DNA from: a virus
Strand: one strand, 5' to 3'
DNA length: 20,668 bases
IMG/VR virus record: IMGVR_UViG_3300025543_000277
Span: 1 to 20,668 of that record
A program made the translations under genes and the position numbers. Below, in pieces: positions 6,432-19,906 of this stretch (position 1 is the first letter of the stretch; each line of letters opens with the position of its first letter). Under the pieces are notes generated by a model, which saw only the letters and a list, made by a program, of their open reading frames with translations, was not told the DNA's origin and ran no database searches.

Positions 6432-8014
6432 ATAACATGAAATGGAAAAACCCAGGGATCACCTTTATCTCCGGTGGTGGTGGTTCTGGTGGTAGTACTG
6501 GTTGGCCTAGTGGTGGTTGGCCTAGTGGTGGTTCTGGTGGTTCTACTACAACGACCACACCTACAGAGACGCCTGTCTTTACCTCCAACATGGAACAGTT
6601 AGCTGGTCAAACATTCCCTACTCAAGAAGCACTAGATGCTGCTGAGGGCGCTATCAATACACAGACCACTATCACAGCTAACCAAACACAGTCTGATGCT
6701 ATTGCTGCCGATCCTAACGCTGCTCTTACTCAGGGTCAAGCTAACATTGCTAACTGGGAATCACAGATCGCTAACCTTACTACACAGGTTGGAGAAGACC
6801 CAGGTCTACAGGCTGAGATTGATCGACTAGCTGGTCTTATCCAAGGTGAACAGACTAAGGTTACACAAGCACAGAGGCTCTCCAGTGTAGCTACAGGTAG
6901 CGCACAGAGGGACATGGCTGCTAATGCTATCTCTAACCCTAGCGCCCTCATCGAACAAGCACAGGTGGAGACAACGCAGGTAACCCCTGATCAACTGATT
7001 GCTGCTGGTACAGGTGATGCCGGTGCTGCTGCTCAGGCTGGTGTGTCCACTGTCCAAGATACAGCTACTGCACAGACCCCTGCTAGACAGGAAGCTACAA
7101 CCTACGATGCAGCTACTATCAACGATCAGGTACAGAACGTAACAGACGACCTTCAGGCTGCTACTGCACAAGCCTCAGATAAGGCCACAGTACGTGGTCA
7201 GTTGGCTATGCTGATGGAAGACTTCGAGGGTGGTGAGACTCCTCCTTGGGCCTCAGGACCTATGCGTCAGGCTATGCAGATGATGCAGTCCCGTGGTATG
7301 GGTGCCTCCAGTATTGCTGGTGCTGCTGTCGTACAGGCTGCTATGGAGAGTGCTATCAGCATTGCTTCACAGGATGCTAACATTAACGCACAGTTCGAGA
7401 TGAAGAACCTCGACAATGCACAACAGACTACAATCTTTAAGACACAGCAACGACTAGCTGGTTTGTTCTCTGATCAAGCTGCAGTCAATGCTTCTGCTCA
7501 GTTTAACGCTACTAGTGAGAACCAAACTAACCAGTTCTTCTCCAACCTAGAGCAACAGTCCTCACAGTTTAATGCTAACCAGATAAACGCTATTCGTCAG
7601 TTCAACTCTGGACAGACAAACGCTGTATCACAGTTCAACACACAGATGCGTAACCAGAGGGATCAGTTCAACGCACAGAACTCTCTTGTCATCTCTCAGG
7701 CTAATGCTCAGTGGCGTCAGTCTATTGCTACAACAGCTACAGCTACACAGAACATGGCTAACATGGAGTACACTAAGAATGCTAACGCAATCACAGGTGC
7801 TGCTCTAGACCAGTTGTGGCAGCGTGAGCGTGACCTTATGGATTATGCATTTACTTCTTCAGAGAGTTCACTAGACAGAGCCAACGCACTGGTTGTACAA
7901 CGTCTAGCTATCTCGGCTAGTGCTGAGGCAGCAAAGATTATACAGAAAGCTAATGAAGACGCTACTAAGGGTGCCTTCTGGGGTGAAGTCTTCACAAGTA
8001 TTGCAGGGATTTAA
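6425..8014 (+). CDS. DNA-ejection / internal virion protein with Gly-rich head and hendecad repeats (gp14-like position)
   Basis: A 529-residue protein in the place of T7 gp14. The N-terminus (MLNNMKWKNPGITFISG) leads into a Gly/Ser/Trp/Pro linker (residues about 16-46) containing GWPSG twice, followed by a long region rich in Ala, Gln and Thr. A central section has many Met residues (about 270-310), typical of membrane-active ejection proteins. Residues 359-435 form seven exact 11-residue repeats beginning with Q-[FA]-[NF]. This predicts a right-handed coiled coil. The C-terminus (AKIIQKANEDATKGAFWGEVF) is an amphipathic helix. The start at 6425 overlaps the acyltransferase stop; an in-frame ATG at 6437 is possible but has no better ribosome site. 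A role in the channel through the cell envelope is inferred from position and composition. Confidence 0.65.
   Translation: MLNNMKWKNPGITFISGGGGSGGSTGWPSGGWPSGGSGGSTTTTTPTETPVFTSNMEQLAGQTFPTQEALDAAEGAINTQTTITANQTQSDAIAADPNAALTQGQANIANWESQIANLTTQVGEDPGLQAEIDRLAGLIQGEQTKVTQAQRLSSVATGSAQRDMAANAISNPSALIEQAQVETTQVTPDQLIAAGTGDAGAAAQAGVSTVQDTATAQTPARQEATTYDAATINDQVQNVTDDLQAATAQASDKATVRGQLAMLMEDFEGGETPPWASGPMRQAMQMMQSRGMGASSIAGAAVVQAAMESAISIASQDANINAQFEMKNLDNAQQTTIFKTQQRLAGLFSDQAAVNASAQFNATSENQTNQFFSNLEQQSSQFNANQINAIRQFNSGQTNAVSQFNTQMRNQRDQFNAQNSLVISQANAQWRQSIATTATATQNMANMEYTKNANAITGAALDQLWQRERDLMDYAFTSSESSLDRANALVVQRLAISASAEAAKIIQKANEDATKGAFWGEVFTSIAGI
6500..6529 (+). repeat. 15-base tandem repeat encoding GWPSG
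   Basis: The unit ggttggcctagtggt occurs twice in direct tandem, encoding GWPSG twice within the Gly-rich linker of the ejection protein. The surrounding ggtggt and ggttct units are degenerate extensions. Slippage of such a tract could change linker length. Confidence 0.75.
7499..7729 (+). repeat. Seven consecutive 11-residue (33-base) hendecad repeats
   Basis: The units are QFNATSENQTN, QFFSNLEQQSS, QFNANQINAIR, QFNSGQTNAVS, QFNTQMRNQRD, QFNAQNSLVIS and QANAQWRQSIA, each exactly 11 residues. The regular Q-F-N at the start of each unit gives a hendecad phase. The preceding residues can be read in the same period with one three-residue shift. DNA identity between units is low, so the repeat is maintained at protein level. 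Confidence 0.85.
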
Positions 8015-8017
8015 GAT

Positions 8018-8773
8018 ATGATTGAAGACAGCATCATCCAATTCAGAGCTAAGCGTAAGCGAGAGCAGGACCGCCTAGGTACTAGGGCTAAGACACAGCA
8101 ACGTCTAGGTCTAGCCCAGCGAGAAGCACAGAACACCCAAGGTGACATCCGTGCCGCACAGCGAAACATTGACGAAGCGACAGCACCAGAGTATGATCCA
8201 GCTACAAAGGTTAATGCCTGGGCTGATGAACTTCAGGCTCTCCGTCAGGAACGGTCTGCCCGTGCAGACAAAGAGGTTTCAACTACAACAGCTATGGACG
8301 AGAACCCATTAGCTTCTCCTCGGCCACAGACATTCACGGACACTGTAAATGGCGAGACAGGTGCACGTCTTGTAGAGGACCTACAGGCAGAGCTAGGGCT
8401 TACTAAAGAACAGGCTGCTGGTCTTGTAGGTAACCTTCATGTAGAGACTGGTGGCTTCGAGTTTATGCAGGAGATTGATCCTATTGTTCCTGGTTCAAGA
8501 GGTGGTCTTGGGTTTGCCCAGTGGACTGGCCCTCGTCGTGTAGCTTTCGAGAACTGGGCTGAAGAGAACGGTATGGATACAAGAAGCTATGAGGCCAACA
8601 AAGGGTTTCTTCTCTACGAGATTAACGAGACCAATGAAGGAAGATTCATGGACGACCTAAGGGCAGCACAGTCAGCAGAAGACGCTGCTATGGTTGTATC
8701 AAGTAAGTTCCTTCGTCCAGGAATCCCACACAATGAACGTAGAGTTGCAGTAGCTCAACAGTATTCGAGGTAA
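8018..8773 (+). CDS. Virion-associated tail lysozyme (phage tail lysozyme family)
   Basis: A 251-residue protein with two parts. Residues 1-85 are strongly charged and helical (many Arg, Gln, Glu), likely for docking to other virion proteins. Residues about 112-251 match the phage tail lysozyme family (Phage_lysozyme2 type): LGLTKEQAAGLVGNLHVETG, then GGLGFAQWTGPRRVAFENWA, then FLLYEINET. Glu143 in HVETGGF is the candidate catalytic acid and GFAQW (165-169) lines the substrate cleft. The expected job is local cutting of peptidoglycan while DNA is injected. In T7 the muralytic activity is a domain of the large protein gp16; here it is a separate gene among the ejection genes. The start ATG follows the previous stop by three bases, with a weak AGGGA site. 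Confidence 0.8.
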   Translation: MIEDSIIQFRAKRKREQDRLGTRAKTQQRLGLAQREAQNTQGDIRAAQRNIDEATAPEYDPATKVNAWADELQALRQERSARADKEVSTTTAMDENPLASPRPQTFTDTVNGETGARLVEDLQAELGLTKEQAAGLVGNLHVETGGFEFMQEIDPIVPGSRGGLGFAQWTGPRRVAFENWAEENGMDTRSYEANKGFLLYEINETNEGRFMDDLRAAQSAEDAAMVVSSKFLRPGIPHNERRVAVAQQYSR

Positions 8774-10611: not shown

Positions 10612-13600
10612 ATGTTAACCTCAGCAGAACAGATCGCTCAGTATCGGGCACAACAAACCTCAGGAAGTCCTTCAACACAGATAGGTTTACAAAGAGACCC
10701 ACCTAAGGGTGTCTCTGACCTCCTAGATGATGAACCTTTCTCTGTCATTGCTAAGTACATGGAAGACCGCGCTGGTATGACTGAGCGCGACTACTCCCGT
10801 GAGGAAATCAGGGATGCTTATGTCAACTCTATGCGTGGTTTCAATGCAGGTAACTCTGTTGATGTCGTTCAAGAGATGTCGTACCTGTACCGTGGTGATG
10901 GTGAAGAACTAACACAACGTAGGAACACCGCTGCTGGTGCCTATGACCTATGGGATTCCCTTGATGGCGCGTTCACAGACTCCACCTTCGGTGAGAAGGT
11001 TGATGCTGTTGGTGACTATGCCCGTGCTATTATCCTCGACCCAGTAAACATTGTATCACTTGGTATTGGTAAAGCCGGTGCTGCCGCAGCTACCCGTGGT
11101 TCTACTCAAGCTCTTAAAGTACTGGCACAACAGGCTGGCAAGACAGCAGGACAAGAAGCTGCTAAACGTGGTGCTAACAAAGCTGCTGTCGCTTTAGCTG
11201 AGAAGGCTGCTTCACAGAGAGCGCTTCAACTGTCTATGCAGGCACCTGCTGGTCGAGAGATTGCTCGTCGTGGTGGTATCGCTGATATACTTAGTACTGG
11301 TGCTGCTGATGTAGCCACAGGTGTAGGTGTTGACGCTGGTATGCAGAAGGTAGACCGTATGACAGGACGTGCTGAGGAGTACAGTGCTGCTCAGGGTGCT
11401 TTGTCTGGTGTCGGTGGTATCCTTGGTGCTGGTGCTGCTGGAGCTATGCTTGCACGTAAGGGTAGTAACCAACTCGCTAACACAACCACAGAGTGGGTTC
11501 GTAGTAACGAGATGGCTGATGCTGCCGCTAAGCGGTTTGTAGATGAAGAGGGTAAGGTGAAGGCTAAGGCTGTTGCTGATGCACTCGACATTAAGAAAGC
11601 TAAGGCAGCACTGAAGGAGTTCCTTACACCGTTCCAAGAGTATGTAGAGCAAGGTCGTTTCCTTCGGGAGTCACAGGACCCTGCATCTGAACTATATGAA
11701 CAGGCTACGACTGAAGCATTCTTACAGTTCACCCGTCAAGCCCTTACTGAGGGTGGTATACCTATCGACCGTCTTGCTGCTGCTCAAGGACAAAGACGTA
11801 GTGGTTGGTTGATTGATGTTCTTGAAGACGAGAGTTTTCCTGACGAGATTAAAGACAGTTTACAGGATGCGCTGGACTTCTATATTGATCGTATACCTGG
11901 GGGTAAGCAAGTAAAGCTTGGTAGTTGGTTACGTGAGAACGCACTGAGTGCTAGTGATGCTGGTCGTACACTTAGAGCACAACGTATGGCCTACGATATG
12001 GTCAAGGTTATGAAGGAAGACCCTAAAGGTTTGACAGGGGACAAAGCCCTGATGCAAGCTCTTGCAGATGCACCTTCTGATGCAGCTAAGGAAGCGGTCA
12101 AAGAGAGTAAGATCGCCGCCTTCCAACACACCTACATTCGTATGCTTGTTACTAACCCTGCTACTACAGCACTAAACGTAATGGGTTGGGGTCAAGCCTC
12201 AGCACTACAAAGCTCTGCGGATATACTCCGTGGTACTCTCTACGGTGGTGCTGCTGTACTCAATGGATTGGTTGGTCGTAAGGACAGCTACACTAAGTTT
12301 GCTAAGAAGGCTACCCTTATGGCTGGTCTTCAGAGACAGAAGTTCCGCAACCTTGCTGACCCATTCGGTACTCAAGAAGAAGTACTAGACTACCTGACGT
12401 ACAGACCAGAGGCACAAGATGCACTGTTTCGGTACCTTGCTGGTGGTGTAGAGTCCGAAGATGTTATGAAGGAACTTAACCTGCTACCTGGTGAGAAGAT
12501 TACTAAGTCTGGTCTTAAGAAAGCCTTTGATGGTCTTCAGGTTGCCTACGGTGTGTCTGCTCAGGACATGTTGACTAAGACACAAGAGTTTGCATACTCA
12601 CTAGACAAGAACATCCGCCTTAAGTACGGTATGTCTTGGGCTGACTTCATGCGTCAAGACGACATTGCTGATATCCTTATGGACCCTAAGCGTTCTAAGT
12701 ACACAGACTACCTAGAGGTAGAAGGTGGAGCTGTAGAGGCTGCTCTTGGTAACGTCTATGCACGTAAGTACGGCCCTAAGCCTGGCGACCCTAAGAGTAT
12801 GCTTAAGTTTGTTGCGGGTACTATCGAGGATGCCCGTAACGTGCCTATCCTTGGTGCTCTTGTACCTTTCGGACAGTTCTTCAACAACACTGTTGCCTTC
12901 ATGTACGACTACTCAGGTGCTAACCTCGTCCTTAGTCCTTTCTTCAAAGGGTACAAGAACGTGGAAGACCCTATGGAGTTGTTTACTAAGGCTGCTGTTG
13001 GTTGGTCTGCCTTTGCTTGGGCTACATCCGAAGAGGAACAGAACCTTGAGGATGGCCTAGCTTGGCACGAGTCTCGTGGTCCTGATGGTCAGGTAGTGAC
13101 ACGTATGTACGACTACCCTCTGTCATTCTGGAAGATGGTTGGTCGTATCGGTGCCCACATCAAACGGGATGGTGCTGTGCCTGTAGGTCTGTTCGAAGAC
13201 TTCATGCAGAAGTTTGCAGGTCAAGACGTGTTCCAGAACCTAGGTGAAGCTGCTGGTGCTGTGCAAATAGCTGTGCAGGACATGGCCTCAGGGGAGCCTG
13301 GTGCTACTCTGGAAGCTGTAGCTAATGCTCTCGGTGCTGCTTCAAGTATGTATGCCTCAGGTATGACACGCTTTGTAGACCCAGTTAACACAGCTCTAGC
13401 CTTTGCTGAGGGTGAGAACTACATCGAACCTACACGTAACATCGGTAACAAGCAACTCAACAACGCTCTACGTTACACTGACCAAATCTTTGATAGCCTT
13501 ATCGGTCTGGAGAATATACCTGGCACTGAAGGCTACCGTGTGGAAAAGGAAAGTGCTACGACAGACAGAGACGTGGGTGCTGGTATGGAGCGTGTGTTTG

Positions 13601-14103: not shown

Positions 14104-14136
14104 GAAAAGAGGGGAGAACCTTTCGGAACTCCCCTC
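14102..14136 (-). terminator. Intrinsic terminator of the leftward operon
   Basis: Read on the minus strand, GAGGGGAG and CTCCCCTC form an 8 bp GC-rich stem. A TT/TT mismatch and two more GC pairs follow, closed by a GAAA loop. TTTTCTT comes immediately after the stem. It lies 4 bases past the last minus-strand gene and overlaps the stop codon of the convergent ejection-protein gene. On the plus strand no T-run follows the hairpin directly. Confidence 0.85.
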
Positions 14137-14575: not shown

Positions 14576-14604
14576 ATAGTAAAGCAATCTAAGGTTGTTG
14601 TCAA
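14576..14604 (-). promoter_or_regulatory. Sigma70-type promoter P1
   Basis: On the minus strand: TTGACA at 14604-14599, a 17-base spacer, then TACTAT at 14581-14576. The -35 is a perfect match and the -10 differs from TATAAT at one or two positions. The TGA of the -35 is also the stop codon of the 62-residue gene. The leader to the next ATG is only about 17-20 bases and holds the ribosome site. Confidence 0.85.
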
Positions 14605-14789
14605 GCAGGTTCACCCCAAGTAATGCACCTGTAAGCTGCTACACCTTGTAGGCTGTTGTTAAGGGCTTCCTCTGCGCTAATGCGGTCTTGGTAACAAACT
14701 TCCACTGTAGGGTACGAGATACTGCTAGGGACTGTAACACACTCTGTAGGATTCGCGTATAGGCACACGAGGGCTACTGCTGTAATCAT
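14601..14789 (-). CDS. Small protein with hydrophobic N-terminus and four Cys, possibly exported
   Basis: A 62-residue protein. The first 12 residues (MITAVALVCLYA) are hydrophobic, and Cys9, Cys17, Cys33 and a later Cys (in YRCITW) could form disulphides in the periplasm. There is no strongly basic N-terminus, so this is only a weak signal-peptide candidate. Its ATG overlaps the stop of the DUF3310 gene (ATGA). Its own stop forms part of the -35 box of promoter P1. No family was recognised. Confidence 0.5.
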   Translation of the reverse strand: MITAVALVCLYANPTECVTVPSSISYPTVEVCYQDRISAEEALNNSLQGVAAYRCITWGEPA

Positions 14790-15055
14790 TTGTGAATCTC
14801 CTTCAGTGTTTCGTTAGCCCACTCTAAGTACTGGGCAGCTTTGCTTAGGTCTTCAGTTGGGTTTCCTTTATACATTGCTCGGTGGTTGTACTTCATTACG
14901 TTACCCCGACAGTAGGCTACGAAGCCTTCCTTACCCAGTACTTGTCGGATGTAGTCGATGCACTCAATACCCTCCCCGTGATTGTAGTGTGCTGGTTTAC
15001 TTACTGCGTTGTAGTCCATACCTACACCTTTCTTTACACTGTCTAGTGCTGTCAT
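14786..15055 (-). CDS. DUF3310 family protein
   Basis: An 89-residue protein matching DUF3310, widespread in T7-like and other phages: VSKPAHYNHGEGIECIDYI, then FVAYCRGNVMKYNHRAMYKG and EDLSKAAQYLEWAN. Members are often labelled nucleotide kinase on weak grounds, but no P-loop is present here and the function is unknown. The conserved HYN, GN..KY and EDL.KA..YL motifs are all intact. It has a GAGGAG ribosome site and overlaps both neighbours by four bases (ATGA). Its place with phoH and nrdJ suggests a role in nucleotide or replication metabolism, which is inference. Confidence 0.8.
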   Translation of the reverse strand: MTALDSVKKGVGMDYNAVSKPAHYNHGEGIECIDYIRQVLGKEGFVAYCRGNVMKYNHRAMYKGNPTEDLSKAAQYLEWANETLKEIHK

Positions 15056-15240
15056 TCTGTCTCCTCAAATATAACTTGTTTCGCTGAGTAACCTGTCTTA
15101 GTCTCTTTGACATACCAGTCACCACCCTCGGTATACTTGATAGCCATCTTGTCTAGGGCGGGCCTCTTAGATAGTTCTCGTATAGCATCTACTCCTGCTT
15201 CTAGGTTGTCTGGCACAGTGCACTCAATAATGTAACGCAC
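15052..15240 (-). CDS. 63-residue protein with GTG start, unknown function
   Basis: I place the start at the GTG in TAGTG (15240-15238), overlapping the phoH stop by one base. A very strong AAGGAGGGG lies just upstream at a normal distance. An in-frame ATG at 15273 would add residues (GRSVHQGGG) that merely translate the ribosome site itself. The product begins VRYIIECTVPDNLEAGVDAI (first residue Met in the cell) and ends with YSAKQVIFEETE. It looks like a small alpha/beta protein in which YIIECTV and GDWYVKETK are strands and a helix (AIRELSK) lies between. No family was recognised. It is coupled to phoH. Confidence 0.65.
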   Translation of the reverse strand: MRYIIECTVPDNLEAGVDAIRELSKRPALDKMAIKYTEGGDWYVKETKTGYSAKQVIFEETE

Positions 15241-15941
15241 TAGACCCCCTCCTTGATGAACACTTCTACCCACATCTTGGTCAACGCACTACGAACAATA
15301 TCGTTCACGTTAAACTCTACGATGGGTACAGGTAGGTCATACTTCTCAATGAATGACAAGATAGTAGACAAACCGTCAGTACCCTTGAGGTCTGACTGCA
15401 TGATGTCACCATTGAGTACAATCTTAGAACCTTCACCCACACGGGTGAGTAGCATCTTGAGTTGATCGAAGGAGATGTTCTGTGTCTCATCGACAATGAT
15501 AAAGGCATCCTTGAATGAACGACCCCGCATCATAGCCATAGGTGCAATCTCGATGTTACCATTCTTGATACCTGTCTCCACCACACCCTTACCTAGGTGC
15601 TCCTCTAGTACGTCAAGGACAGGCAATGCCCAGGGTTCTGTCTTCTCACGTAGGTCACCCTTGAGGAAGCCGATACCGTCACCCACAGCTACGTGTGGTC
15701 GTGTGATGATGATACGTTTGATCTTCTTCTCGTGGTATAGGGATGCAGCTAGGCTAGCCACTACGTAGGTCTTACCAGTACCTGATGGGCCGAAGCAAAC
15801 AACCTGCGCCTCCTGACCTAGGATAGCCTTGATGTATACACCTTGCTTCTCTGTCTTGGGGAGGATACTGATAGACTTCTTCCTCTCATCGAACTTAGTA
15901 GGTTGACGAGTGGTCTTTACCTTAGCTCTTTGCTGTACCAT
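15240..15941 (-). CDS. phoH: PhoH-like P-loop ATPase
   Basis: A 233-residue phage PhoH. Walker A is GPSGTGKT at 51-58, Walker B is DAFIIVDETQN (about 145-155), and the LNGDIMQSD segment (176-184) is the conserved motif after Walker B. TRPHVAVGDGIGFLKGDLRE and MMRGRSF are also family signatures. PhoH proteins are ATPases related to the N-terminal half of RecD/superfamily 1 helicases. They are very common in marine phages and are often counted as auxiliary metabolic genes linked to phosphate stress, although the role is unsettled. It is the first gene after promoter P2 but has an unusually long leader of about 100 bases. The ribosome site AAAGGT is moderate. Confidence 0.92.
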   Translation of the reverse strand: MVQQRAKVKTTRQPTKFDERKKSISILPKTEKQGVYIKAILGQEAQVVCFGPSGTGKTYVVASLAASLYHEKKIKRIIITRPHVAVGDGIGFLKGDLREKTEPWALPVLDVLEEHLGKGVVETGIKNGNIEIAPMAMMRGRSFKDAFIIVDETQNISFDQLKMLLTRVGEGSKIVLNGDIMQSDLKGTDGLSTILSFIEKYDLPVPIVEFNVNDIVRSALTKMWVEVFIKEGV

Positions 15942-16048
15942 GTGTTACCTTTGTAGTTAAATTGGGTGAGCAGTTTATACACATACTCAGGTGTTACCTA
16001 GGTTGCAACTTCCGCCTGGTATTAGCACCTACGGCTAGGTATACTGTA
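15942..16048 (-). promoter_or_regulatory. Long, possibly structured phoH leader
   Basis: About 100 bases separate promoter P2 from the phoH ATG. The other two promoters have leaders of fewer than 25 bases. On the minus strand AGGTG (16030-16026) can pair with CACCT (15993-15989), TACC (16021-16018) with GGTA (15998-15995), and AGG (16017-16015) with CCT (16002-16000). An alternative small hairpin, ACCTA-GCCG-TAGGT (16040-16027), competes for the same bases. AGGTAACAC occurs twice: once in the hairpin (15999-15991) and once over the ribosome site (15950-15942). A regulatory role is inference. Confidence 0.35.
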
Positions 16049-16077
16049 ATAGTAAAGTAGTTAGGACTCTATGTCAA
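16049..16077 (-). promoter_or_regulatory. Sigma70-type promoter P2 (phoH unit)
   Basis: On the minus strand: TTGACA at 16077-16072, a 17-base spacer, then TACTAT at 16054-16049. The arrangement and both hexamers are identical to P1. It overlaps the last codons and stop of the 80-residue gene upstream. Confidence 0.85.
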
Positions 16078-16303
16078 GGTGGTCCTTATACTTTTCGATT
16101 GCCTCAAGTACTTTCTCAACAGAGGGGTATGGGTATATGTACCTAGTGTACTGTAGCCCAGCACTATCCCACTGACCGAGTTCAAAGACACCGAGGTGTA
16201 TTTTAAGCTGATACTTATAACAACCATCTTCTTCCCACGTAGCGATGAACTCCGCAGGGGAAACATAGGTCTTAGTCTCAGTAGGTGTGTACTTTACCTG
16301 CAT
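16061..16303 (-). CDS. Small protein, unknown function
   Basis: An 80-residue protein rich in Tyr (MQVKYTPTETKTYVSPAEFI, later LQYTRYIYPYPSVEKVLEAI). The predicted pattern is several strands followed by a C-terminal helix (VEKVLEAIEKYKDHL). It starts 15 bases after the nrdJ stop with GGAG about nine bases upstream, so it belongs to the nrdJ transcript. Promoter P2 lies across its 3' end. No family was recognised. Confidence 0.6.
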   Translation of the reverse strand: MQVKYTPTETKTYVSPAEFIATWEEDGCYKYQLKIHLGVFELGQWDSAGLQYTRYIYPYPSVEKVLEAIEKYKDHLDIES

Positions 16304-16317
16304 TATTTACAACTCCA

Positions 16318-18087
16318 TTACTCGCAAGAACGAATTAACTGTCCTGAGTTCTCATCGAACTTAAGTTCACAGGCACCACCTTCCTCGATCTGTCCCTCCT
16401 CTGTAGCAGTAAGCACAGAGCCAGTCACATCGTTAGGACGGTACGTAGTACAGCCCTTACAGCCCATGTCGTAGGCATCCATGTAGACCTGCTTGAAGTC
16501 ATCGAAGTTGATGTCCTCTGGTACGTTGATAGTCTTAGAGATAGAGCTATCAATCCACCGCTGTGCTGCAGCTTGCATACGGACGTGAGCACTAGGCTCC
16601 AGTGTCTGAGCAGTAACGAAGCTAGCAGGTAGCTTAACACCTGTGTTGTCCCGCTTCCACTTGGTTACACCGTAGTCTTCTACAACCTGTGTGATCTTAG
16701 AGCCATCCTTCTGCATAACCTTACGCTCATAGCTGAGTGCAAAGATAGGTTCGATACCCGAGGATACGTTACCTGCATACAGGGAGATAGTTCCTGTAGG
16801 TGCAATGGATGTGAGTAAGGCGTTACGAATACCGTGCTCTGCTACCTGTTCACGGATGTGCTTAGGCATACGCTTCATGTTACCTGAGGCTAGGAAACCC
16901 TCAGCATCAAACATTGGGAAGGCACCCTTCTCCTTAGCAAGATCAATAGAAGCCTGATAGGACGTAACAGCAATGAACTTCATCACCTTGTCTGTCCACT
17001 TAACAGCTTCGTCTGAACCGTATACGACACCACCAAGAGCCAGTGCGTCAGCTAGACCTGTGACACCTAGGCCAATACGACGTTTATTCTCAGCTTCTTC
17101 CTGTTGCTGTGGCAGTGGGAACTTAGAGACATCGACCACGTTGTCCATCATACGTACAGCCAGACGGATAGTAGATTCCAGGCTACGCCAGTTGATAGAG
17201 TAGTCATCCTGTAGCATGGCTACCATGTTGATAGAGCCTAACAGACAGGCACCATAGGGTGGTAGAGGTTGCTCACCGCATGGGTTGGTAGCAGCAATGG
17301 TCTCACAGTAGTTGAGGTTGTTCATGTCGTTGATACGATCAATGAAGATAACCCCAGGCTCAGCGTAGTGGTAGGTGGAGGACATGATCTTGTCCCACAA
17401 TGACTTAGCATTGATTGTCTTGTACACCTTACCATCAAACTTAAGGTCGAACTTAAGGTTGTTCTTCACTGCCCGCATGAACTCATCAGTGATAAGCACA
17501 GACATGTTGAACATACGTAGACGTAATGGGTCACGTTTAGCCTCAATGAACTTCTCTACGTCTGGGTGGTCACACCGCATGGTAGCCATCATAGCGCCAC
17601 GGCGTGTACCAGCAGACATAATGGTACGACATGATGCATCCCATACATCCATGAAGGACAGAGGACCAGAGCTATCAGAGGCCACACCCTTAACCTCAGC
17701 ACCCTGTGGGCGTAGGGTAGAGAAGTCATAACCGATACCACCACCTTGCTGCATGGTAAGGACAGCTTCTTTAAGACCGTCATAGATACCAGGAAGACTA
17801 TCATCAATAGTCCCCATTACAAAGCAGTTGAAGAGGGTTACCTTACGATCACCTGTACCAGCACCTGCATTGATACGTCCAGCAGGGATAAACTTGAAGG
17901 ACTCAAGGGCTTCATAGAAAGCCTTACCCCATGTCTCTGGGTCCTCCTCACAGGAAGCTAGGTGATTAGCGACACGCTCCCATGTGTCGTGTACTGTCAG
18001 GTCAATGGGTGTGCCATCGTACTCTTTCAGTCTATATTTCATGTCCCACATTTCTTCTGCAATGGGTGTTCGGAAGATGTTACTCAT
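16318..18087 (-). CDS. nrdJ: Adenosylcobalamin-dependent (class II) ribonucleotide reductase
   Basis: A 589-residue reductase that makes deoxyribonucleotides for phage DNA. Key residues are visible: Cys88 (LFNCFV) and Cys281 (PPYGACLLGSIN) as the active-site redox pair, and Asn268, Cys270 and Glu272 in TNPCGEQP as the radical site. The 11-residue gap between thiyl Cys and second redox Cys matches NrdJ. QQGGGIGYDFSTLRP, GLGVTGLADALALGG, APTGTISL and KGCTTYRPN are further NrdJ signatures. There is no N-terminal ATP cone, and the C-terminus lacks the usual CxxC tail, ending in RSCE with another Cys at 572 (CEL). It is shorter than typical bacterial NrdJ of about 700 residues or more. Class II enzymes need B12 but no oxygen. 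The ribosome site is AAAGGAAA. No separate small subunit is expected or seen. Confidence 0.92.
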   Translation of the reverse strand: MSNIFRTPIAEEMWDMKYRLKEYDGTPIDLTVHDTWERVANHLASCEEDPETWGKAFYEALESFKFIPAGRINAGAGTGDRKVTLFNCFVMGTIDDSLPGIYDGLKEAVLTMQQGGGIGYDFSTLRPQGAEVKGVASDSSGPLSFMDVWDASCRTIMSAGTRRGAMMATMRCDHPDVEKFIEAKRDPLRLRMFNMSVLITDEFMRAVKNNLKFDLKFDGKVYKTINAKSLWDKIMSSTYHYAEPGVIFIDRINDMNNLNYCETIAATNPCGEQPLPPYGACLLGSINMVAMLQDDYSINWRSLESTIRLAVRMMDNVVDVSKFPLPQQQEEAENKRRIGLGVTGLADALALGGVVYGSDEAVKWTDKVMKFIAVTSYQASIDLAKEKGAFPMFDAEGFLASGNMKRMPKHIREQVAEHGIRNALLTSIAPTGTISLYAGNVSSGIEPIFALSYERKVMQKDGSKITQVVEDYGVTKWKRDNTGVKLPASFVTAQTLEPSAHVRMQAAAQRWIDSSISKTINVPEDINFDDFKQVYMDAYDMGCKGCTTYRPNDVTGSVLTATEEGQIEEGGACELKFDENSGQLIRSCE

Positions 18088-18097
18088 TTAGTTTCCT

Positions 18098-18376
18098 TTA
18101 TTCTTGAAGTTCACGTACACGGAAGAAGGAGGAAAACTCCTGGCAATCCTTCATTAGCTTCCTTGCGTAGTAAGCAGGGTAATTGTTGTTAACCTTAAAT
18201 CGATCCCCGTCAGTTTCAATATCGGCATACCACCGTATACGCTCAAAGATAGCCTTAGCTGAGTACGTATTGTAGCCTCTATCTAGAGCTTCTTTAGCAA
18301 ACCTGTGGAATAGTTGATAGACATGTGGGTTTATTTCGTCGTAGGTTTGGAACTTATCTTCAAGTGCTTTGGTCAT
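18098..18376 (-). CDS. Conserved phage protein of the IFERIRW type, unknown function
   Basis: A 92-residue protein with the layout of a small protein family I remember from many phages and prophages: NPHVYQLFHRFAKEALDRG, then SAKAIFERIRWYADIET, then FKVNNNYPAYYARKLMKDC and FFRVREL at the end. No biochemical function is known to me. It overlaps mazG by four bases (ATGA) and lies 10 bases before nrdJ, so it is part of the nucleotide-metabolism unit. The ribosome site is GAGGAT. Confidence 0.7.
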   Translation of the reverse strand: MTKALEDKFQTYDEINPHVYQLFHRFAKEALDRGYNTYSAKAIFERIRWYADIETDGDRFKVNNNYPAYYARKLMKDCQEFSSFFRVRELQE

Positions 18377-18741
18377 ACTAAATCCTCTAGGGCAATCTTC
18401 GGAAAGTCTAAGTTCTTCACGACTTTTCCATCTTCTCGGTACTTGATAGTACCATCTTCTTGGTACATACGCCCCATGTTATTCTCATGGACACGTTTGA
18501 CTGCTTCGTTAAGGTCCCAACCCTTGGAGTTAGCGTAACCAAAGATAACGTACACTAGGTCAGCTAGTTCCTTAAGCTCTGCTGGAGGTAGATTAGCAGG
18601 TTTACCATCCACCTGTAAGCCGAGTGCCGCAGCGTACCACTCGATGTACTCCTCGACAATAAGCTTGGCACCCATAGCAGGGTTCTTGTCTTGCTTAGCT
18701 GCGAAGCGGTAATCTTCCACCATCTGTAAAATGTTCATCAT
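18373..18741 (-). CDS. mazG: MazG-like nucleotide pyrophosphohydrolase
   Basis: A 122-residue all-alpha NTP pyrophosphohydrolase of the MazG / phosphoribosyl-ATP pyrophosphohydrolase superfamily. The metal-binding motifs are E30-E31-x-x-E34 in VEEYIEWYAA and E58-x-x-D61 in KELADLVYVIFGYA. The C-terminal KRVHENNMGRM segment and the DGTIKYREDGKVVKN loop are typical of the phage forms. It is expected to cleave an NTP or dNTP (or a related nucleotide) to the monophosphate and pyrophosphate, tuning the nucleotide pool beside nrdJ. The ATG at 18741 is preferred over the one three bases on because AAAGGAG is eight bases away. The start overlaps the previous stop (ATGA). Confidence 0.85.
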   Translation of the reverse strand: MMNILQMVEDYRFAAKQDKNPAMGAKLIVEEYIEWYAAALGLQVDGKPANLPPAELKELADLVYVIFGYANSKGWDLNEAVKRVHENNMGRMYQEDGTIKYREDGKVVKNLDFPKIALEDLV

Positions 18742-18905
18742 TTGTTGTACTCCTTTGGGGTGAAAAATAAAGAGACGGAACTCCTGTTCTCCTGCATCTT
18801 GAAGTTACATTCCCAACCCTCGTCAATGTTAGGGTAATATTGGAAACTTAACTTAGCATGTGGGTGACATTGCTTAAGCTTCTTACGTAGTTCTTTTACT
18901 GTCAT
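18738..18905 (-). CDS. Small 55-residue protein, unknown function
   Basis: ATG at 18905 to TGA at 18738-18740. The product begins MTVKELRKKLKQCHPHAKLS and ends SVSLFFTPKEYNK. The opening TVKEL..KLK followed by a strand is common in small phage proteins. Its start overlaps the upstream 53-residue gene (ATGA) and its stop overlaps the mazG ATG (ATGA). The upstream GGAGAAG serves as ribosome site. The perfect fit between two ATGA junctions is the main evidence that it is real. Confidence 0.75.
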   Translation of the reverse strand: MTVKELRKKLKQCHPHAKLSFQYYPNIDEGWECNFKMQENRSSVSLFFTPKEYNK

Positions 18906-19063
18906 GTCTTCTCCAGTTCAATATAGGTCAAGCTAACGTCATCAATGTCATGGAAGGCTAGCTTGATCATGTCCATTAGGACCTCAAGTGTTGCCTCTTC
19001 GTGACACTCCATGAACCCAGCATCAGGGTCAATCGTTAGGTTTAGGTTTACTTCAATATCCAT
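18902..19063 (-). CDS. Small 53-residue acidic protein, unknown function
   Basis: ATG at 19063 to TGA at 18902-18904. The product begins MDIEVNLNLTIDPDAGFMEC and ends DDVSLTYIELEKT. It is acidic, with a likely strand-helix-strand layout. It is the first gene after promoter P3, with a strong GGAGG five bases upstream of the ATG. It overlaps the next small gene by four bases. Confidence 0.75.
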   Translation of the reverse strand: MDIEVNLNLTIDPDAGFMECHEEATLEVLMDMIKLAFHDIDDVSLTYIELEKT

Positions 19064-19087
19064 GTTACCTCCAAGCAAAGACGGGTA

Positions 19088-19115
19088 GTTATACTCATTG
19101 TGTTACGGGTGTCAA
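19088..19115 (-). promoter_or_regulatory. Sigma70-type promoter P3
   Basis: On the minus strand: TTGACA at 19115-19110, a 16-base spacer, then TATAAC at 19093-19088. The TGA of the -35 box is also the stop codon of the metallophosphoesterase gene, as in P1. The leader to the next ATG is about 18 bases. It should drive the small genes, mazG and nrdJ. Confidence 0.75.
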
Positions 19116-19906
19116 CCATAAGTTTTCTCCAGTGTATCCATGCTTACAAACTGCGGCTCATACATACCGTCAGCTACTTCACGCTTGATTACCACACCCT
19201 TCCACCAGCCGAGGTTACTTTGTCCCGCCCAGCTTTCTTCTTTTCCTTTATAGCAACCAACGACAAGACCCGCAAGGCCATTAGTACGCGAATCATCCGC
19301 CATATACAGAGACCTAAGATGGGTGTGACCGCAAGTTGAAGATACATGACGTTTACCGAGGAGGCCATAAGCATGGTGAATACCAGCCATAGCACGACCA
19401 GAGTTACCAGGAGCAAAGTAGTGAGCGTAGTCCACACCATCATAATTAGCGACGCTGGGGGCAGAGTTTTCGTACTGGTGGTACTCGTCGAACCAGCGGT
19501 TTGTTTGAAGATGTGAGAAGGATATCCCGTATGACGATCCCTCAAGTCGTGGGTCAACGGATACAGCCGTTTGGATTCGATGTTCATGGTTCCCTTCAAA
19601 CCCGATCCACGTAGGCTTACCTTTTCGGTGATATCTAAATTGGTGACGGAGCCTCTCTTGGGAATCGTTGTAGGAGTTGATGTCTTCTTCATAGTTAGCT
19701 CCCATAATCAGGGCAGGTTTACCCTTGTCGTACATGTTAAGGCTACGCATATCAGCGCCATCACCTAGGTCAATGCACATGTCTGGTCGAACATCGTAGA
19801 TAAGTTTACCTAACCAGTCGAACCGCTTGTTGTCTGCTGATGGATCGGCATGTGCACAACTCCATACGATGACCGTGCGGCTTTGGCCTGTTTTACTTAT
19901 GTTCAT
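19112..19906 (-). CDS. Calcineurin-like metallophosphoesterase
   Basis: A 264-residue protein with the motif series of metallophosphoesterases: GD at 48-49 in DLGDGAD, GNHE at 105-108, HH at 177-178 and GHTH at 193-196. The first motif, normally D-x-H, reads C17-A-H19 (VWSCAHAD), so the usual first metal-binding Asp is replaced by Cys. The enzyme family hydrolyses phosphomonoesters or phosphodiesters with two metals. Phage members are common next to replication genes, but their substrate is not established. The start lies within the 3' end of the HNH gene (14-base overlap) with GGAG eight bases upstream. Its stop TGA is part of promoter P3. Confidence 0.8.
   Translation of the reverse strand: MNISKTGQSRTVIVWSCAHADPSADNKRFDWLGKLIYDVRPDMCIDLGDGADMRSLNMYDKGKPALIMGANYEEDINSYNDSQERLRHQFRYHRKGKPTWIGFEGNHEHRIQTAVSVDPRLEGSSYGISFSHLQTNRWFDEYHQYENSAPSVANYDGVDYAHYFAPGNSGRAMAGIHHAYGLLGKRHVSSTCGHTHLRSLYMADDSRTNGLAGLVVGCYKGKEESWAGQSNLGWWKGVVIKREVADGMYEPQFVSMDTLEKTYG

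Follow-up and report, generated by a model that had tools for sequence, protein, structure and literature searches.

A 27-nucleotide RNA pseudoknot tied to gene ends and cleavage sites in phages, found between a promoter-like site and a phoH-like gene

Are the three promoter-like sites (P1, P2, and P3) on the minus strand of a virus fragment real promoters, and what lies between one of them, P2, and the phoH-like gene that follows? The fragment, virus record IMGVR_UViG_3300025543_000277, is 20,668 bp long, and we call this whole 20.7-kb stretch the window. A PhoH search yielded 45 loci (numbered here, like all loci collected later, with the prefix L), and comparison of the 160 nucleotides (nt) preceding phoH in these relatives revealed a recurrent block, ACACCTGAGTATGTGTATAAACTGCTCACC, at varying places. 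We trace this block to a class of RNA pseudoknots on the coding strand that is tied to gene ends and cleavage sites, as covariation and position show. We rate this RNA class as new and the promoters, which are probably real, as ordinary. The window holds one copy of the element:

15968..15994, minus strand: 27-nt H-type RNA pseudoknot, the only window copy, supported by its parse, by 10/10 consensus positions, and by covariation

In the window copy, stem 1 pairs 15994-15991 with 15982-15979 (ACAC/GUGU) and stem 2 pairs 15988-15984 with 15972-15968 (GAGUA/UGCUC), leaving the loops CU, U, and AUAAAC. The consensus of the class is NNNC-CU-RNNYA-N-GNNN-NNAAAC-URNNY: a stem 1 of 4 bp that is free in sequence but paired, its arms being the four letters before CCT(G) and four letters in the loop; a stem 2 of 5 bp; and the fixed loops CU and NNAAAC. 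We scanned viral contigs (IMG/VR) with three patterns, one a part of the block and two more with loop parts freed, each of which returned at least 120 stretches; the reversed form of one of the three, used as a control, had 0 matches in the whole viral collection. Before counting, we removed near-duplicates and any copy lying too close to the end of its contig (from 372 to 323 in one count; 376 were kept in another). A fixed-geometry count in the collected loci gives 464 copies with all ten fixed letters and 10 with eight or nine, against a single, partial one in shuffled loci.

Both stems covary. Among 141 nonredundant copies from the scan that leaves the stem-1 letters free, the three free pairs are formed in 141/141, 139/141, and 122/141 copies, compared with 119.0, 59.3, and 62.0 after partner shuffling, while a fifth position shows nothing (65 versus 63.7 shuffled) and shifted registers pair at 0.35-0.53. 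Stem 2 is GAGCA/UGCUC in most copies; a nonstandard stem 2, such as GGGUA/UGCCC, GGACA/UGUCC, GACCA/UGGUC, GGCCA/UGGCC, and others, is found in 19 copies, against 3 in shuffled DNA. At the variable stem-2 pair, U-G occurs 15 times, U-A 6 times, and C-A never; a pyrimidine position at which U-G is common and C-A absent indicates that the structure is RNA of this strand and not DNA. The outermost stem-1 pair, by contrast, is loose: A-C or C-A is about as common there as G-U (8 versus 9 and 11 versus 4 in two scan sets). These stem-1, stem-2, and U-G/C-A counts are the fair tests, since a further pair count on 130 sequences is circular, its rows having been chosen for full pairing. The pseudoknot is thus an RNA structure on the coding strand. 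A DnaA box (TGTGTATAA in the window copy) was rejected as an explanation, its letters varying freely while stem 1 pairs.

The placement of the element was counted on 333 nonredundant viral copies, taking open reading frames (ORFs) of at least 60 amino acids upstream. The stop of such an ORF lies less than 60 nt upstream in 235 of the 333, with a stop-to-pseudoknot spacer of mostly 5-10 nt (mode 5 nt, 35 cases; one of 4 nt, none shorter). Downstream, a transfer RNA (tRNA) follows within 20 nt in 38 copies, a hammerhead core in 2, and a promoter-like site in 12, one copy falling under two headings. Conversely, 47 of the 246 tRNA genes in viral loci begin 3-14 nt after a pseudoknot copy, while 0/246 have one within 20 nt behind their 3' end. 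Hammerhead-like cores follow a copy within 120 nt at 5 of their 23 sites in all loci, against 0.15 expected, and by our own reading of the sequences the hammerhead cut falls 6, 6, 13, 13, and 46 nt behind the copy; the Rfam hammerhead model gives 50.5 and 41.2 bits to the two in L407 and 34.2 bits to one in L255, so that one exceeds its gathering score of 48.5. Only the upstream gene could profit from the 11 copies at convergent junctions, and among the 5 copies at divergent junctions, 3 have a same-strand ORF just upstream and 2 do not. The gene caller used is crude: it places the pseudoknot inside a called ORF in 62/323 copies (42 antisense), a count that becomes 12/376 with ORFs of at least 100 amino acids.

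The tRNAs behind copies are tRNA-Asp in 39 of 47 cases. L407, a contig of a Polynucleobacter metagenome-assembled genome, carries two pairs of pseudoknot and type III hammerhead 270 nt apart on its minus strand (7271-7325 and 7541-7595). A scan of upstream proteins in viral contigs, which took in 83 of the 235, assigned 23/83 to phrog_1221 (unknown function) and 12/83 to Hsp20. In two annotated phages the pseudoknot lies in gene-free stretches of the annotation, at about 2910-4428 of L171 (Erwinia phage Berlingot; 1.5 kb) and 2987-3617 of L172 (crAss-like cr7_1; 0.6 kb); in the related record L481, two annotated tRNAs come directly behind it.

The spread of the element is wide. Named carriers include Cobavirinae, Erwinia phages, two crAss-like phages, Paracoccus phages, Lactobacillus phages, and a Christensenellales phage; 11/11 whole named phage records hold 1 or 2 copies and none matches the reversed control, although this is no measure of prevalence, the records having been picked via BLAST with the pseudoknot. 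Of the Lentibacter SH36 phages, ICBM1 and ICBM2 have one copy each and ICBM3 also gave a match; phiEF-1.1 and JNU_P7 are among the Lactobacillus carriers. Up to 6 copies occur per contig, with differing stem-1 letters. Among 84,980 genomes of bacteria and archaea, scanning found 71 stretches, and stem 1 is fully paired at 41/73 of these bacterial and archaeal sites and has two of its three free pairs at 28/73. Some bacterial copies belong to small genes consisting of a ribosome-binding site, a peptide of ~20 residues like MKRFMIPRTAHCDEGCRILS in our translation (motif P-R-x-A-H-C-x-E-G-C or similar), and the pseudoknot at the end, often with a terminator behind; they occur in deltaproteobacterial, Aminicenantes, Omnitrophota, and other contigs (L411, L415, L417, L426, L428, L443, L448, L451, L454, L463, L469, and L472). 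An attenuator role for the bacterial copies was discarded, since the downstream genes are mutually unlike (of 10 proteins, 9 have Pfam families, and these are diverse).

Copies of the pseudoknot also appear inside spacers of clustered regularly interspaced short palindromic repeats (CRISPR), in L464 and L475 (CP054675, Ignavibacteria) and L473 (Poribacteria), where 4/97, 1/38, and 1/117 spacers carry it, all in the same orientation to the repeat; in L416 (Melioribacter) it adjoins a single repeat copy. Repeats of this kind end in ATTGARAC when read in the direction of the CRISPR RNA (crRNA); by that orientation, the crRNAs would be complementary to the RNA that forms the pseudoknot. The element may be common enough for bacteria to keep several separate spacers against it.

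What would such an element do? From its position, we tentatively propose, giving this reading close to an even chance, that the pseudoknot serves as a 3'-end cap that halts 3'-to-5' exonucleases. The element comes immediately after a stop codon or a short structured RNA, and what lies downstream would be lost by decay or cut away, be it by a hammerhead ribozyme, by RNase P where a tRNA follows, or by another endonuclease. After such processing the pseudoknot would be the last structure on the upstream RNA, and a knotted fold at an RNA 3' end would stop 3'-to-5' exonucleases. We favor this reading because RNase P and hammerhead cuts would leave the pseudoknot terminal and because the shortest spacers place it against the terminating ribosome.

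Several findings weigh against a cap. Most copies are without a known former of 3' ends, since 115 of the 333 viral copies are followed within 60 nt by a ribosome-binding site with its start codon and 167 by none of the features that were scored; an intrinsic terminator within 70 nt behind the copy was found in 0/333 (0.4 in shuffles). No close upstream stop precedes 98 of the 333, and a TATAAT stands 20-95 nt upstream of 19 of these 98 (7 in shuffles), mostly in the order promoter, hairpins, pseudoknot, gene, which has the look of a 5' leader, as in the window. Under the cap idea such leader copies must count as small RNAs, and the leader part up to the pseudoknot may indeed be a separate small RNA; together with the missing end formers, however, they speak against a cap. 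The bacterial small genes have their stop codon in or against the knot. Leaders made of a TATAAT promoter, two like-shaped hairpins, the pseudoknot, and a gene are seen in L062, L065, L072, L083, L093, L144, and others, and in several loci the gene behind begins MPxYDYKC.

Among other explanations, the main one, which we consider rather unlikely, makes the pseudoknot a landing site or obstacle for a universal host RNA factor on 5' or 3' RNA alike; ribosomal protein S1, a scanning RNase E, and RNA polymerase as in put-type antitermination are candidates. Such a factor would suit an element that both 3' ends and leaders carry in phages of many unrelated hosts. Rho-dependent termination threatens the untranslated stretches behind stop codons and before tRNAs, and put RNAs resemble the leaders of promoter, two hairpins, and pseudoknot; antitermination would, however, be senseless at the 11 convergent junctions, and the fixed loop letters could serve tertiary folding alone. 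Viral recoding pseudoknots stand at a spacing similar to the 5-10 nt seen here behind the stop codon, and the single 4-nt spacer with none shorter agrees with stimulation of stop-codon readthrough or of -1 frameshifting. We dropped this idea as very improbable, because the frames are not kept open behind the stop: at least 30 open codons follow in 27 (frame 0), 26 (-1), and 21 (+1) of 220 upstream genes, so that no frame stands out, and many copies lie before tRNAs or convergent genes.

A small ribozyme whose self-cleavage parts the upstream from the downstream RNA would also fit the very strict unpaired letters (CU and AAAC) and the host-independent spread. We know of no nucleolytic ribozyme as small as 27 nt with two helices, however, and hammerhead ribozymes directly behind the pseudoknot would be redundant; there is also no Rfam ribozyme match at the pseudoknot in the stretches searched, and we regard this explanation as improbable even though the place between genes and tRNAs is like that of the theta ribozymes of gut phages (PMC10879173). 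The idea that the element counters host defense by imitating an RNA antitoxin (type III, ToxI-like), as a decoy or mimic, has in its favor that ToxI is a pseudoknot, that phage PhiTE carries a pseudo-ToxI (PMC3475682), and that hosts with CRISPR spacers against the pseudoknot must meet it often. It is nevertheless scarcely credible: ToxI-type RNAs are tandem repeats, whereas the pseudoknot occurs singly, each copy linked to a stop codon or a processing site; contigs carry up to 6 with different stem-1 letters, and no Rfam family matches in the stretches searched.

We return to the promoters, which the first-pass annotation had read as sites of host-type RNA polymerase, two of them sharing the TGA of the -35 box with a stop codon. 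The hexamers, spacers, and minus-strand places that it gave for all three are as we find them:

14576..14604, minus strand: P1, TTGACA 14604-14599, 17 nt, TACTAT 14581-14576; the same site occurs in L004 and L005, and the L006 site is without fusion
16049..16077, minus strand: P2, TTGACA 16077-16072, 17 nt, TACTAT 16054-16049; conserved in L004-L006, and also in L016-L019 and L022, where the -35 box reads TTGACG
19088..19115, minus strand: P3, TTGACA 19115-19110, 16 nt, TATAAC 19093-19088; kept in L004, L005, and L006

The sharing of letters is likewise borne out: the ORF 14601-14789 ends on the TGA of P1 (14603-14601), and the metallophosphoesterase ORF 19112-19906 on the TGA of P3 (19114-19112); the -35 box of P2 lies inside the 3' end of the ORF 16061-16303. 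Fused TTGACA boxes thus make up 2/6 on the minus strand (P1 and P3), and on the plus strand 0/8 share letters in this way with the stop codon of any ORF 50 or more codons long. P1 and P2 match 10/12 consensus letters, with a TTGACA -35 box, a spacer within 16-18 nt, and a TATAAT-like -10 box, and share sequence beyond the hexamers, CTTTACTATTA-NN-GTAT. The statement that the plus strand has no comparable match is not quite right: the plus-strand sites 8169-8197 and 11859-11886 also score 10/12, and 15107-15137 fits the loose pattern TTGACA-N15-19-TAnnnT. This pattern has 3 matches in the window against 1.39 expected, and 18/100 shuffles reach 3. A consensus scan of the window gives 15 matches against 21.7 in shuffles. 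As both scans stay within the shuffle counts, the window alone shows no excess of promoters, which is what one would see if the resemblance of P1, P2, and P3 to promoters were due to chance and there were no promoter among them.

The relatives overturn this reading for P1 and P2. Across the window and the 45 loci, all 25 occurrences of TTACTATTA are on the phoH strand (0 on the opposite one), and in 10/12 nonredundant sites, not all of them independent since some are homologous places, TTGAC(A/G) stands exactly 17 nt upstream (TTGACA in 8, TTGACG in 2); most TTACTATTA sites with TTGAC(A/G) at that distance stand shortly before a start codon. The pattern TTGACA-N16-18-TAnnnT has 16 nonredundant sites on the phoH strand and 3 on the other strand; expected counts for it may be low, its shuffles being a random walk that can end early. 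L016-L019, with a PhoH of 73% identity, retain the P2 box together with its neighborhood. The strand split of TTACTATTA and the fixed 17-nt spacing thus rescue P1 and P2, which are very likely promoters of one form; that a host-type RNA polymerase transcribes the phoH arm from them is, from sequence comparison, well supported by the relatives, not by the window alone. Chance resemblance at all three sites is accordingly quite improbable, and weighs more for P3, whose -10 box is not of TACTATTA form. The original view that host-type polymerase reads these genes therefore gains from a strand-confined promoter form that fits the nucleotide-metabolism arm, with weaker support at P3.

The fusion of stop codon and -35 box fares less well as a principle: only P1 is fused among the 16 nonredundant phoH-strand sites, and P2 is unfused. 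Its conservation in relatives, proposed as a check, is mixed: L004 and L005 retain the P1 fusion, L006 and L012 have lost it, and the P3 fusion is kept, only in the three near-identical relatives L004-L006. In the P2 homologs of L016 and L022, the -35 letters lie, by our own reading, within the last codons of the upstream gene. Compared with sigma-70 promoters of bacteria, P1 and P2 have TTGACA, 17 nt, and a -10 box likewise, whereas the -10 TACTAT of this phage group has unusually conserved neighbors (CT before, TA after). A second -35/-10 pair around the pseudoknot (TTGACA 18 nt before TATAAA, in L008-L010, L014, and L042) was rejected as a general explanation, as nearly all of more than 100 further copies listed are without TTGACA there.

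The genes around these elements fall into two arms that converge at a terminator-like hairpin. The minus arm encodes endonuclease VII, a metallophosphoesterase, a MazG-like pyrophosphohydrolase, ribonucleotide reductase, PhoH, and a nucleotide-kinase-like protein, and the plus arm carries tail and other virion genes. The features closest to P2 and the pseudoknot, and the junction of the arms, are as follows:

14113..14134, minus strand: terminator-like hairpin where the two gene arms meet; the corresponding site in phages ICBM1 and ICBM2 carries an annotated bidirectional terminator
15240..15941, minus strand: phoH-like gene (PHROG 170, E 2.6e-76), downstream of P2 and the pseudoknot
15995..16041, minus strand: hairpin running from the expected P2 transcript start and abutting the pseudoknot, from folding and relatives
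16061..16303, minus strand: ORF of 80 amino acids that precedes the pseudoknot, with 66 nt between its stop and stem 1; no PHROG family matched
16318..18087, minus strand: ribonucleotide reductase gene, from DNA similarity to phage ribonucleotide reductases and the Cobavirinae gene order

The gene order resembles that of the Cobavirinae (Zobellviridae) phages ICBM1, ICBM2, P12053L, and SIO1, near which we would place the window phage; in the named relatives the pseudoknot comes directly after the ribonucleotide reductase gene. The P2 transcript is expected to start near 16042. Its leader hairpin is an optional module, different in L006, similar in phage ICBM2, and absent in L004, and the whole leader folds no better than shuffles (z 0.77) in nested folding, which cannot show the knot. 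In the ICBM2 record, the annotated start of a glutaredoxin gene (13051-13368; 3484-3801 of L167) precedes the pseudoknot; this deposited start is probably wrong, and a start behind the pseudoknot (MYTIITKNQCNFC) fits better.

Rfam 15 has no family at the pseudoknot in the stretches searched, although its covariance models do not score pseudoknots and a weak match could be missed. The open-access literature (PubMed Central, PMC), searched by topic and by sequence letters, yielded no description of the pseudoknot, and there is none in the available parts of PMC2864571, PMC10879173, PMC12373285, PMC3088659, PMC3014915, and PMC3475682. A known ribozyme, a riboswitch, and the STAXI motif were set aside, there being no Rfam match in the stretches searched and the descriptions in the accessible parts of PMC2864571 and PMC10879173 differing from the present element. 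If the proposals made here are true, a very small and very common phage RNA element has so far gone uncatalogued, and phage operons have a general device that fixes or protects RNA ends across many hosts; 3' ends of phage mRNAs would become predictable from sequence, a compact part for stabilizing RNA would be at hand, and the repeated targeting of the pseudoknot by CRISPR arrays would be explained. The promoters by themselves would be ordinary.

Several known systems share one or another trait with this pseudoknot. Exonuclease-resistant RNAs, of which the known ones stop 5'-to-3' enzymes of eukaryotic hosts, and the 3' stabilizers of repetitive extragenic palindromic (REP) type are alike in the proposed mechanism, a fold that halts exonucleases, and differ in folds and sequences. 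The mRNA of gene 32 in phages T4 and T2 contains an H-type pseudoknot with two stacked stems (PMC3014915), and so offers an H-type fold in phage mRNA like the present one, both of whose stems covary. In T4-type phages it stands ahead of gene 32 and acts as the translational operator for a single protein, at another place and with other letters, whereas most copies of the present pseudoknot follow a stop codon, and the genes and tRNAs after them are unrelated: the window copy leads into phoH and not an SSB gene, and elsewhere tRNAs, convergent genes, and many other genes follow. The theta ribozymes of gut phages, resembling the ribozyme of hepatitis delta virus (HDV), are small structured RNAs beside phage tRNA genes, which have the HDV fold and cleave at the tRNA 3' end (PMC10879173); the pseudoknot instead stands 3-14 nt before the tRNA 5' end and has two helices only. 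The STAXI motif (Weinberg 2010; PMC2864571) is a pseudoknot often found near DNA-handling and integrase genes, but consists of two or three tandem repeats with UUCG loops and has no Rfam match here. ToxI and pseudo-ToxI, finally, are compact pseudoknot RNAs, one of them known in a phage (PMC3475682), and are repeated 36-nt toxin-binding units not tied to stop codons, unlike the pseudoknot described here.

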